This document shows, piece after piece, positions 46,476-55,620 of a stretch of DNA of 64,000 bases. Under the pieces are notes generated by a model. The model was not told the DNA's origin and searched no databases. It saw only the letters and a program-made list of their open reading frames with translations. How positions within the stretch are numbered: the first letter of the stretch is position 1; each line of letters opens with the position of its first letter. The stretch comes from Nymphaea colorata (taxonomy: Eukaryota; Streptophyta; Magnoliopsida; Nymphaeales; Nymphaeaceae): assembly GCF_008831285.2 (NCBI RefSeq), contig NC_045145.1, forward strand, positions 17,730,802 through 17,794,801, read 5' to 3'. A program made the translations under genes and the position numbers.

Positions 46476-49090
46476 AGATAGAAGCCGTGAAATGGACGTG
46501 GGGTTGAGACTTAGGATGAGGCTGAGCGAAAGTAGGGAGAGGTGATGGTGGCGTCGGTGCTGAAGTCAAAAGCTGTTGGTTTGGCGTCATTCTTTGTTAT
46601 GGTCGGCCTGGTTAGGCTTGTGTAGACCGATATATTGGCTTCTCCCCAAACAACAATAAAAGAAGAGGAGATATGATGGGGGTTTGGTTGAGCCGCTCAT
46701 GGGCAGACACTCAAGGCTATGAACTCTTTGTGCTACAAAAGGGTGTCACTAGTATGCGAATTGAAAAAGAATGACATATGATCGGTAGAGTAAATGAGAT
46801 TCAAATGACATATGATCGGTAGAGTCGTTCTTAAATAAACATATGATTGGATTCTATTCAGTTTTTTCAGTTTGCAATATTATAATAAAGCGGTTCTGAC
46901 CCAGTTGCGTATTTAAAAGTTGGACTTGGATTCGGTTGTGAAATTAAAAGTTGAGAGATTCAAATCGAATTCGAGTCGACCATGCTCATAAAATTGCCAA
47001 CTCTTTGGAAAATGATAAATTTGAAAGCATCAGGAAAACGTTGGAGTTTGGTATGCCATTAACGCAGGGCCCGGCAACCGGAGGCCTGTGATCTGTCCCG
47101 ACCTGTCCCGTCATAAAGAGGCCAAAAGGGAGCATTTTCAATGGCGATTGGTTCTCTGAACTACTGCGACCTGCGATTGTCCAGGACTTGTACTCTGCTG
47201 AGAGCACCATGGTTCCTAGAAGAAATAGATGAGTTTCTAGTACATGGATGTCCCACTCTCACCGCAAAAGACGCCAGAAATTTTGTCACCAAAGTGCTGT
47301 GGAATGTGAAGAGATGGCCCCTTCTGCTTTGTGCGTATAAGATCTCAATCGTACCAAAGCCAAAAAGATATTGCACCACCACATGATAAGCCTCGTCCGC
47401 CCACAATTGACAAGAACAGCAGATAGCTGCGCATTGATGGACTCGTACCTACTCTAAACTTTAGGTGAGACCAAATTCATATCATACATTAAATGCCCAT
47501 GTTGTAAAATGAAGGGAAAGAACATAAGCAGATGTGAAATTGATTCCTATGAAAGTCGAGCCCGAGATTAGTCGTTTGGGAGGAAAGAAATCACAATAAC
47601 AGGAAATGGTGAGATTACAAAGGTATTCAGGGATCAAGTAACTTCATACTTTCAACTCCCATCTGAATGAATTACAGTCACGGTCGGATCCGGCGACTCA
47701 AGATGCCACCGATTCGTTTTGGTGTTCCGGTTCACCGCCTTCGACGATGCTTATCTCCATGATTAGGGATGTAAATGGATTGGATTCAAAACAGGTAAAC
47801 ACGTGGGAATCGAGAATCCCATGCGCATTAAGGGAAAAAAAATTGCAAAGCCCTTCATCCTAGATCTGATATACTTTGTCGGCAGCTTCTTGAGCCAATA
47901 AACTGTTTTTCAACCAGCATGAACAATCATAGACAAATGAATGGCATGATCTTTCATCCTTGTCAATTTGACATGTTTGGCTTGGAGTCACCTACCTCTT
48001 TAATGGTTGTTTCTTCATCATCTCATCCGTAACTGTCACAGTTAGTACCACATTCATTTTGGAGGAATCATTTTTTAATCCAACCTTGATATCGAGCCTT
48101 TCTCTCTATTCAATTATGATTGGCCCACTCGGTTGGTGCATTTAGCTCCTTTATGTTCTTTCACATTCTTTTCCAAATCAAAAACTGCATTTTGTGTCAA
48201 AAAATGTACAGACATAACAAAATTTTCTATCTGCATGTAAATGGGTAAGTGAGCTTCAATTAAATGGCATGTGCTGGTAGGGGTCATTAGATCATCAAAT
48301 TTATGGTGATGGTTATACTTCTAAGCAGATCAAACATCAGTTGCTTTCAGAATGAATTTGAGAGTGTAAGAGTTTCTTTGTTTTTTCAAACCTTACATAT
48401 TAGCCTCTAGGTGGAGGGGTTTTGGTAGAGCTGAGAACCATTGTGGGCAAACTCACTGGACTGGCTCAGGAATCAAGTCAAGGTTGGCCTGACACACCGA
48501 CCCCTGACTCAGCCCAACTCGGCCCGACTCACCCGATTTAACTGCAATGATTTACATTATGGTTATTTTAAAACTCGACCAAATCGAGTCAATTTGCTGA
48601 GTCAAAGAGTCAACTCGGTGCCATCTGCCGATTTGAGTCAGAGTTTGCCAACTATGCTGAGTACATGGTCCACCTGCTAAGCCATTAATTCACCACTGTG
48701 AGGAAGTTGATAACCGACACTATTTGTGGCGTACATGAACCGCCATGACCACCTATTCTCTACTTCGTGGTATTGCCTTCTATGTTAATTCTTCATGGCA
48801 AGTGAGCACACGTTCTCGATCTATGGAATTGGTATCTTTTAACTGCAATCTCCCGGATTAAGTTTGAATTTGCGGGTGGATGAGCAGATTCATGATCAGC
48901 TGGATCACTTTTAGAAAGAGATCGATTTACGATCTCCACCAAACAAGTTTTACGCGAGAGGTACCACCATGGGCGTGGCACTCTGCATTAGAAATAGTTG
49001 GAAGATGCTACAGCACAACTTACAGATCTCCAATATTACTTGTATATTATTCATGGTTCACTTATTTGCAATATCCAAGTGGCCTACCAT
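46476..49090. other. Intergenic, no gene supported
   Basis: 46755-46825 has a short direct repeat, atgacatatgatcggtagag. 46860-46980 has 'gattcggttgtgaaatt' words of the dispersed AT-rich repeat. Frames at 47141-47406 are open on both strands but match nothing I know. Confidence 0.35.
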
Positions 49091-49259
49091 GACCATTTCA
49101 GGAAGCAGCGGCAGAGATACATAGAGGCTGGTATGGGCGGTTGACCATTTCAGGAAGCAGCGGCAGAGATACATAGAGGCTGGTATGGGCGGTTGACCAT
49201 TTCAGGAAGCAGCGGCAGAGATACATAGAGGCAGGCAGAGATACATAGAGGCTGGTATG
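49091..49259. repeat. 52-base minisatellite, about 3 copies
   Basis: Two exact copies of a 52-base unit beginning gaccatttcaggaagcagc (49091-49142, 49143-49194) are followed by a third that is interrupted by a short internal repetition (ggcagagatacatagagg twice) and ends near 49259. Near-perfect identity implies a recent origin. Confidence 0.95.
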
Positions 49260-50080
49260 ATCTACCGCCCATAGCTGCCCAAGATAAATTTCACTGGACT
49301 AGCTGATAATCACATTGTGATGACTCAAAATAAAGAAGCCCACACTAGGTATGAGCTTGTGACTCTCCGCCAAAAGAATCGTAGCTCCGCCACCACCACA
49401 AGGCATGACGGGCCACATAAAAGCAGACTGGTCCTCAAAGCAGGAGTGACTAAAGGCAGATAGCTTAGCATGACAAATGTCAAGAAATGAAGGGGCCCAC
49501 ATTTCACATCCGATCCTTAGAATCACAAATGCATCGCCAAACTTGTTTATAAGCAGCTGTAAGAACCGATTGCACAGTCATTCCGCGCAAATCGCTGTCA
49601 GAACCAAGTAGAAAATTCATTTCCTGGTGTACGATTTAAGGAGAAAAGCACCAATTTAAAGTGCAACAGAAATTTTAATTTCTTTGGCTTCCAGTATACT
49701 TTATTATGATAATAGGGTGCCGTAGACATCCATATTAAGAGTACCGATATAGGCAATCAGACGGTTCAAATGAAGCAGCTTTCCACGTGTAGAAAGTGCT
49801 CTGAATGACAAGGGCCTTCATGCACCATGTACACAGAAACATGATCATGCAAACACATAAATAGGCATACACACATTTCTGTAACTTGACGTGACAATGG
49901 GTGATTATTTGGTATGTATTGGATAGGGAAGGTTGGCAGCATATTGTAGGAATCATCAAACTTCCCAGTCAAGAAGGTCGCCAGGAATAGACCACCTCAC
50001 CTTGAAGTAGCCGATTGTGCATTGCACACTTGCGTAAAAAGGAAAGAAAAACCAATACTTCCAGCATCGCCAAGAATAGG
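49260..50080. other. Intergenic to distal THIC 3' region
   Basis: No gene frame is supported. The extended THIC transcript may end in this region, but no polyadenylation signal could be assigned. Confidence 0.3.
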
Positions 50081-50111
50081 AAGCACCCTGCAAAATCAGA
50101 GGAATACAAGC

Positions 50112-50223
50112 AGCACACTCCCTACGCAGGTGTTACCCTGTTCAGGTTCAAAGGGACTTTCTCAGCCTGAACCAGTCATTACTCCCATGGGTAGGGAAAG
50201 ACAGTCCAAGCACCCCTGGTGCC
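50112..50223 (-). promoter_or_regulatory. TPP riboswitch aptamer, distal copy (THIC 3' region)
   Basis: On the minus strand the order is GGCAC-CAGGGGTGC, a P3 arm (CTTGGACT pairing with GGTTCAGG, with wobbles), CTGAGA (50165-50160), AAGTCCCTTTGAACCTGAAC, then AGGGTAACACCTGCGTAGGG and GTGTGC. All TPP-aptamer landmarks are present: the CTGAGA bulge, the CCTGA element and GCGTAGGGA. P1 is weak (GGCAC/GTGCT, 4 Watson-Crick pairs plus one G-U). The normally conserved TAATGCC segment reads TAACACC. A splice acceptor, gattttgcag|g, follows, with its exon starting at 50087. THIC riboswitches respond to thiamine pyrophosphate and control 3' splicing and mRNA stability. Confidence 0.85.
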
Positions 50224-50540
50224 TGCTCATATAAGCAATTTGCAATGAAGCAACTAAACAACAATACAACACCTCCTGATGAAGCAAGCACAGCATTTAT
50301 GTCACTGCAAGAAGCAAAATTCTTGCATTGACATCTATTGTAGCAGGAGGCACCGCAATAGATTCTTAGAATTCAACAAGAAAAGGGAAAGAGAAAAAAA
50401 AAGGAGATAAAGTAGGGAGCTAGGGCCAGGAAATGATCTCCCTTTTCAGGCTTATCATTCTGAGATTGATCCACATATCCTTTAGCAAAATCTTGCTCGA
50501 AACCACCAGAACATACAGCACGATCCTGTGACAGAACGAA

Positions 50541-50655
50541 AAATGCACACTCCCTACGCAGGTATTATCCTGTTCAGGTTCAAAGGGACTTTCTCAGCCT
50601 GCACTCCCAACCAACAGGATGGGAAAGCGCAGATGCAGGCACCCCTGGTGCATTT
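50541..50655 (-). promoter_or_regulatory. TPP riboswitch aptamer, proximal copy (THIC 3' region)
   Basis: On the minus strand the order is AAATGCAC (P1 5' side), CAGGGGTGC, a P3 arm closed by CCTGCA/TGCAGG, CTGAGA (50597-50592), AAGTCCCTTTGAACCTGAAC, AGGATAATACCTGCGTAGGG and GTGTGCATTT. P1 can pair for eight perfect base pairs (AAATGCAC with GTGCATTT). The core is that of plant TPP aptamers, with G to A in TAATGCC, a change also seen in functional bacterial TPP switches. An acceptor, ttcgttctgtcacag|g, lies just downstream, with its exon starting at 50525. This copy looks fully competent. Confidence 0.92.
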
Positions 50656-50790
50656 AGTATTTAGCAAACTGAAGTGGATAGCAAGAAGATTATTTTATTC
50701 CACAAGGATAACGACTCTACTATCTGAACAACTCTACTATCTGAACAAAGACAACAGATGGATTGATTTTATTTTCCACATTGTAACTTA

Positions 50791-50868
50791 CCCACAACCA
50801 GATAAGAACAAAAGGGACCATTCAGACATGGAACTCAATCCGATCCTTCAAGATTACGAATAGTTACC
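50791..50868 (-). promoter_or_regulatory. Two strong 5' splice sites upstream of the TPP aptamers
   Basis: On the minus strand TTGCAG|GTAACT has its GT at 50867, and TTGTGG|GTAAGTTA has its GT at 50791. The first also reads as an acceptor (cccttgcag|). In known plant THIC genes, ligand-controlled pairing between the aptamer and an upstream 5' splice site decides whether the 3' UTR intron is removed. Which of these is used here is unknown. Confidence 0.5.
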
Positions 50869-51002
50869 TGCAAGGGCAATGCAACAAAATGATCATATAA
50901 CAAAATAATGATATATTTAATGGAGGAAACAAGAGAATTTCATTTTCATTCCCATTGCTTAATTTTAACCATGAACAACAGAGCAGATAAATAATTTTAA
51001 GA

Positions 51003-51273
51003 GACTCAAATTCTAGCAGGTTTACTAGATCACTTCTGGCCTTAATAATAAATTATGAACATCTTGCAGCAAAGCTGAAGCTTAGAACAGAAGCCCAGAA
51101 TCACCTAGTTAAATGATGGCAATTCAAACTCAGATGTTAGCAGGTTTACTAACACTTCTGGCCCTAATAGTTATGCAGCACCTTGCAGTTGCAGCACAGC
51201 TGAAGCTCAGCTTCAGTTTTGAGAAGGAGCTTCATGGGAACAGAAGTCCAGAATGGCGACTCAAACTCAGACT
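51003..51273 (-). repeat. Imperfect tandem duplication in the THIC 3' UTR
   Basis: Two diverged copies (about 51003-51100 and 51126-51256, plus-strand order) share actca.att/gttagcaggtttacta, cacttctggcc.taata, cttgcag, cagctgaagct and gaacagaag.ccagaat. A third partial start (gactcaaactcagac) lies at 51258. The small plus-strand frame at 51113-51346 is a by-product. Confidence 0.75.
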
Positions 51274-51510
51274 GTTTCAAGCATGTGTCAACGGAAGGCA
51301 AATGAAAATCAAGTCCCTAATTTTAAATGCACGTGTTTTTTCTTGATATTTTGCATTATGGCAATGTAATTGTACCATTATTGCAAATATCATGGTACTT
51401 CATTAATAGTCTGAATATATCAAGATAATTTAGCTTAAATTGGATAGTTTATGGTGTTTTCTTCAAGAGAAAAAATATTTTTGATATCTATTGTGTAGAT
51501 ACACCAACCT

Positions 51511-55620
<4,110 letters not shown>

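Follow-up and report, generated by a model that had tools for sequence, protein, structure and literature searches.

TPP riboswitches are described as the only riboswitches known from eukaryotes (PMC12371167). The published plant form consists of one aptamer in the 3' UTR of THIC, where TPP unmasks a donor, the processing site lies in the alternative intron, and the resulting long RNAs run on for up to ~1 kb (PMC10226581). In most plants an intron directly follows the THIC stop codon, and the spliced form loses 7 bp (PMC5853225). Tandem TPP riboswitches are described outside plants, with 213 representatives in one collection (PMC9481103) and a survey of bacteria and archaea in another (PMC12452182); a word search of the former found plants, fungi and eukaryotes unmentioned. 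Among eukaryotes, NMT1 of Saprolegnia carries two TPP aptamers in 5'-UTR introns, for which the authors could not infer a mechanism (PMC5882874).

The locus described here lies on the minus strand of a 64,000-nucleotide stretch of Nymphaea colorata DNA (the window). It resembles the THIC riboswitch of Arabidopsis and cassava in its gene, its 3'-UTR position and its (here probable) post-stop intron, as well as in having donor and poly(A) motifs upstream and a candidate acceptor at the 5' edge of the aptamer, but it has two aptamers ~322 nt apart where those plants have one (PMC10226581, PMC5853225). With Saprolegnia NMT1 it shares two related TPP aptamers in tandem in a eukaryotic thiamin-synthesis gene, whereas that system belongs to an oomycete and sits in the 5' UTR of another gene (PMC5882874). 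It would also share with the surveyed tandems two aptamers of the same class per RNA; however, the predicted pseudo-cooperative tandems among these have a platform for each aptamer, whereas the motifs here suggest one shared platform (PMC9481103, PMC12452182). The initial annotation knew of no tandem version in a flowering-plant THIC, in agreement with a search of the open-licence literature, incomplete in its coverage, that found no description of a plant THIC gene with two TPP aptamers. I conclude that the two-aptamer plant THIC riboswitch is real and, subject to that incomplete coverage, new.

Two TPP aptamers in the 3' region of THIC

The initial annotation had proposed, from motifs, two TPP aptamers in tandem, about 320 nt apart and downstream of THIC, and had suggested the Rfam covariance model RF00059 on the minus strand as a check. 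When all 4227 Rfam models were scanned against positions 48000-55000 (cmscan), exactly two matches to RF00059 exceeded its gathering cutoff of 54.3 bits, both on the minus strand: the upstream aptamer, A1, at 50656-50533 (72.5 bits, E 2.6e-13 for the 7-kb stretch) and the downstream aptamer, A2, at 50227-50101 (64.2 bits, E 3e-11). Both cover the full length of the model (positions 1-105 of 105), and they are the sole Rfam matches above gathering cutoffs in 48000-55000 as well as in the window as a whole, which was also scanned. The cores from GCACC to GTGTGC occupy 50651-50545 in A1 and 50222-50113 in A2, and the spacer, measured from GTGTGC of A1 to GCACC of A2, is ~322 nt, close to the distance first proposed. 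The locus thus holds two complete aptamers of one class on one strand, that is, a tandem predicted to share one ligand.

Across the 408-Mb genome, an RF00059 search recovered at least two places, A1 and A2 (a lower bound, with 49 of 11825 candidates scored). A 29-nt core allowed up to three mismatches occurs in three places, namely A1, A2 and a site on contig C6 with one mismatch. The exact 30-nt core had no matches in viral and prokaryotic contig sets, a result that is uninformative on plants.

A1 and A2 are 81% identical over 112 nt. Their flanks give no alignment, the other BLAST matches between the 361-nt stretches being 7-14 bases long with E of at least 0.65. Outside P3 the two cores (68 nt) differ at only two positions, in or beside loop L5; P3 itself is strongly different, with the outer six pairs formable in both. 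Folded alone, A2 has a best fold with helices at the places of P1-P5, and the best fold of A1 closes a hairpin inside the 5' strand, with P3, P4 and P5 appearing in the centroid. Fold energies relative to shuffles are a weak signal (z -1.57 for A1, 11/200; z -0.15 for A2, 79/200), and that of A2 is no better than the shuffles.

The assignment to THIC comes from a spliced gene model upstream on the same strand, which bears out the location first proposed. In my own splice model the coding region spans 51511-54440 on the minus strand and comprises four exons (54440-54127, 53912-53785, 53146-52320 and 52194-51511) in an open frame of 650 aa. Pfam ThiC_Rad_SAM was recognised in both of the large exons, 3 and 4 (E 7.8e-102 and 2e-74). 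Each exon alone also matched NCBIfam ThiC models with strong E-values but below the whole-protein cutoffs, as is expected because single exons were tested alone. A search of the genome with the THIC protein gave five matches, of which four lie at this locus and cover the gene, and the full exon set is present here only. The fifth, on contig C9, corresponds to THIC residues 1-94 at 66% identity with two internal stops; a fragment of exon 1 and upstream sequence on that contig matches window positions 54205-54743 (88% over 540 nt). By eye, intron 1 of THIC contains a long CT, TA and CA microsatellite (~54065-53950, minus strand).

Both aptamers (50656-50101) lie downstream of the stop codon, which ends at 51511. 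By its motifs, a probable 3'-UTR intron directly past the stop codon occupies 50868-51508 on the minus strand (GT at 51508, CTTGCAG ending at 50868), and in the motif layout a short 3'-UTR exon separates it from a candidate regulated donor, TGTGG/GTAAGT, at 50786-50791 (minus strand; the slash marks the putative splice junction here and below). The GTAAGT at 50791 is the only one from the stop codon to A2. Between this donor and A1, two AATAAA motifs (at 50773 and 50699, within 50694-50773, minus strand) mark a candidate 3' end for a short form, and the first AATAAA past A2 (49700-49705, minus strand) a candidate 3' end for a long form. As motifs, therefore, both upstream elements of the plant THIC 3'-UTR riboswitch, the donor and the poly(A) signal, are present here.

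A candidate acceptor in A1, GCACCAG/GGG, after which the exon would resume at 50644, was placed by mapping from the published 7 bp lost on splicing. In A2 the sequence GAGCAG/GCACCAG/GGG offers two candidate acceptors, after which the exon would resume at 50222 or 50215; the context CACCAG/GGG is present in both aptamers. Further acceptor candidates, again by motif and on the minus strand, are T-rich CAG sites right past A1 (50526-50528, TTCGTTCTGTCACAG/GATCG) and right past A2 (50088-50090, CCTCTGATTTTGCAG/GGTGC), which are two of the 17 CAG sites that a 3-kb scan found preceded by 20 pyrimidine-rich nt.

In an exact-motif scan the interval between A1 and A2 has no GTAAGT and no AATAAA; it does hold the weak donor-like GTATGT (50516) and AGGTG (50274). 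The poly(A) scan covered the exact AATAAA hexamer only, and plant poly(A) signals are looser than this. Since no AATAAA lies between the aptamers, A1 and A2 are likely to be held in one transcript, and the arrangement of motifs suggests that they share one splice and poly(A) platform.

Decay of a second copy of the pair, and possible constraint on the cores

A DNA search of the same genome found a second place, on contig C6, that matches the two-aptamer stretch at 88% identity (query 1-558 of 601). This THIC fragment, at about 17723322-17724530 of the contig, covers the end of exon 4 and the 3' UTR, with ~380 and ~250 bp of THIC sequence missing. It contains both TPP aptamers in order, each decayed (31.2 and 29.6 bits, against the cutoff of 54.3), and its donor reads GTAACC. 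It is not a fully spliced retrocopy, because it contains sequence of the probable 3'-UTR intron. By eye, short inverted GAAACTTGA and TCAAGTTTC beside its two ends may hint at how the fragment moved.

The presence of the same pair on C6 in diverged form indicates that the tandem predates the C6 copy and is real. The initial annotation had named an assembly artefact in the second copy as a way in which it could be wrong. This explanation, in which A2 would be a duplicated piece of assembly, was rejected, and I give it a negligible chance: the two copies have diverged to 81% identity, their P3 and flanks differ, and the diverged pair recurs on C6.

Differences between THIC and C6 were polarised for each core outside P3 (68 nt), with the other THIC aptamer as outgroup. 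In the A1 core 3 substitutions and one 11-nt deletion all fall on the C6 side, as do all 8 substitutions in the A2 core, giving 12 events (11 substitutions and one deletion) on the C6 side against none detectable on the THIC side. For A2, an ungapped comparison gave 17 differences; 9 of them lie at the 3' end, in a part that no longer aligns well with C6, and were dropped to leave the 8 counted here. At those 9 positions, too, THIC matches its sister aptamer. Of the L5 positions at which A1 and A2 differ, one sits within the C6 deletion, and a THIC-side change is possible there. Under equal rates the chance of such a one-sided outcome is 0.5^12 = 0.0002 for both aptamers, 0.004 for A2 alone and 0.06 for A1 alone. 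With the neutral rate set at half the divergence of the flanks (0.097 to 0.154, depending on the region), 3.3-5.2 changes would be expected in the A2 core on the THIC branch, and the probability of zero changes is 0.037 to 0.005.

On the other hand, THIC-C6 divergence over the whole aptamers (0.088 and 0.106, both from small numbers) is not clearly under that of the flanks. Were one branch conserved and the other neutral, a value near half the flank divergence would be expected, so these figures count against constraint. With few events, at one locus picked for its intact aptamers and with an outgroup that is itself conserved, the comparisons amount to moderate evidence that purifying selection keeps both aptamers.

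Proposed mechanism and alternative explanations

Duplexes covering the donor were found in 622 of 1246 scanned windows of sequence, the strongest being with the P4-P5 strand of A2 at -18.5 kcal/mol; it was not counted as evidence of masking because shuffles were equally strong. Each aptamer can be placed in a 7-bp register spanning the donor, with duplex energies that are not beyond those of shuffles: among 1000 shuffles of the target, 569 (A1) and 304 (A2) were at least as strong, and among 1000 shuffles of the donor, 521 and 302. In partition functions the cost of opening the donor was 7.5-8.1 kcal/mol whichever aptamers were forced into the bound state, and 8.2 without any aptamer. These folding models, which omit ligand energy, proteins and co-transcriptional folding, give no support to an aptamer-dependent masking of the donor.

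The best explanation of the locus, to which I give a probability of about one half, is that two TPP sensors serve one THIC splice and poly(A) platform. As published for other plants, the 3'-UTR donor would go unused at low TPP, and the RNA, ending at the poly(A) signals that follow the donor and precede A1, would be stable. At high TPP the donor would be freed, splicing would remove those poly(A) signals, and an unstable RNA would run on to the distal end. Given the published run-on of up to ~1 kb, this RNA would include A2, which is ~570 nt downstream of the donor and precedes the next AATAAA. A2 would then provide the shared platform with another TPP sensor and would have a distal 3' splice site of its own; its effect could fall on the shared donor or come later, in the long RNA, or it could provide a distal acceptor. 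Shut-off would be complete only with both sensors, and it may be sharper or give two long 3' isoforms. Alternative 3' isoforms, which the initial annotation had suggested along with a steeper or two-step response, are plausible given the shared donor and the candidate 3' splice sites in and beside both aptamers. As for sharpness, arithmetic rather than data indicates that two equal, independent sensors, both required, would narrow the 10-90% range from 81-fold to ~40-fold, and the same ~40-fold range follows if either of the two suffices.

A fuller version holds that this is a eukaryotic two-sensor THIC riboswitch on one platform, selected since before the C6 copy, that it shuts off more sharply or in two steps and yields long 3' UTRs of two alternative forms, and that a whole lineage of plants has it; I put this forward tentatively, as possible but well short of probable. 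A natural two-aptamer THIC, accompanied in its genome by a decayed copy for comparison, would allow a direct test of whether plants tune steepness or step number via splicing, a kind of tuning that tandem riboswitches are believed to give bacteria, and would also let one ask what sets the vitamin B1 set-point.

The two-sensor reading has to be weighed against accounts in which A2 does less, or something else. It might be that only A1 regulates, and that A2 is the leftover of an old duplication in a long 3' region, intact by chance or through weak constraint. A1 does outscore A2 (72.5 bits to 64.2) and occupies the usual position, near the donor and poly(A) motifs; between the two aptamers neither GTAAGT nor AATAAA recurs, and the folding tests reveal no effect of A2. 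However, A2 keeps every core position of A1 except the two in or beside L5, whereas at least 8 substitutions accumulated in the core of its C6 copy, and the cores of A1 and A2 still align although their flanks no longer do. I regard a purely residual A2 as unlikely.

Similarly unlikely, in my estimate, is that A2 acts after A1: splicing at A1 would produce the long RNA at the cost of A1 itself, and A2 would then sense TPP in that RNA and change its stability, export or 3' end choice. Splicing at GCACCAG/GGG would cut 7 nt from A1 and leave A2 whole, and AATAAA is absent between the two aptamers, but nothing in this analysis shows a plant TPP aptamer acting directly on stability. It is very improbable that A2 is part of a transcript other than that of THIC. 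No minus-strand ORF of at least 110 aa lies between 46596 and 51511 (among ORFs listed from 30000 on), which leaves no obvious gene closely after A2, and its membership of another gene was rejected on these grounds.

Two minor features were seen beside these results. Downstream of THIC, at ~49260-49090 on the minus strand, there is by eye a direct repeat whose unit contains CCTCTATGTATCTCTGCC. Elsewhere in the assembly, full rbcL is present on contigs C70, C168, C669 and C783, the last of which (159842 bases) has roughly the length of a plastid genome.
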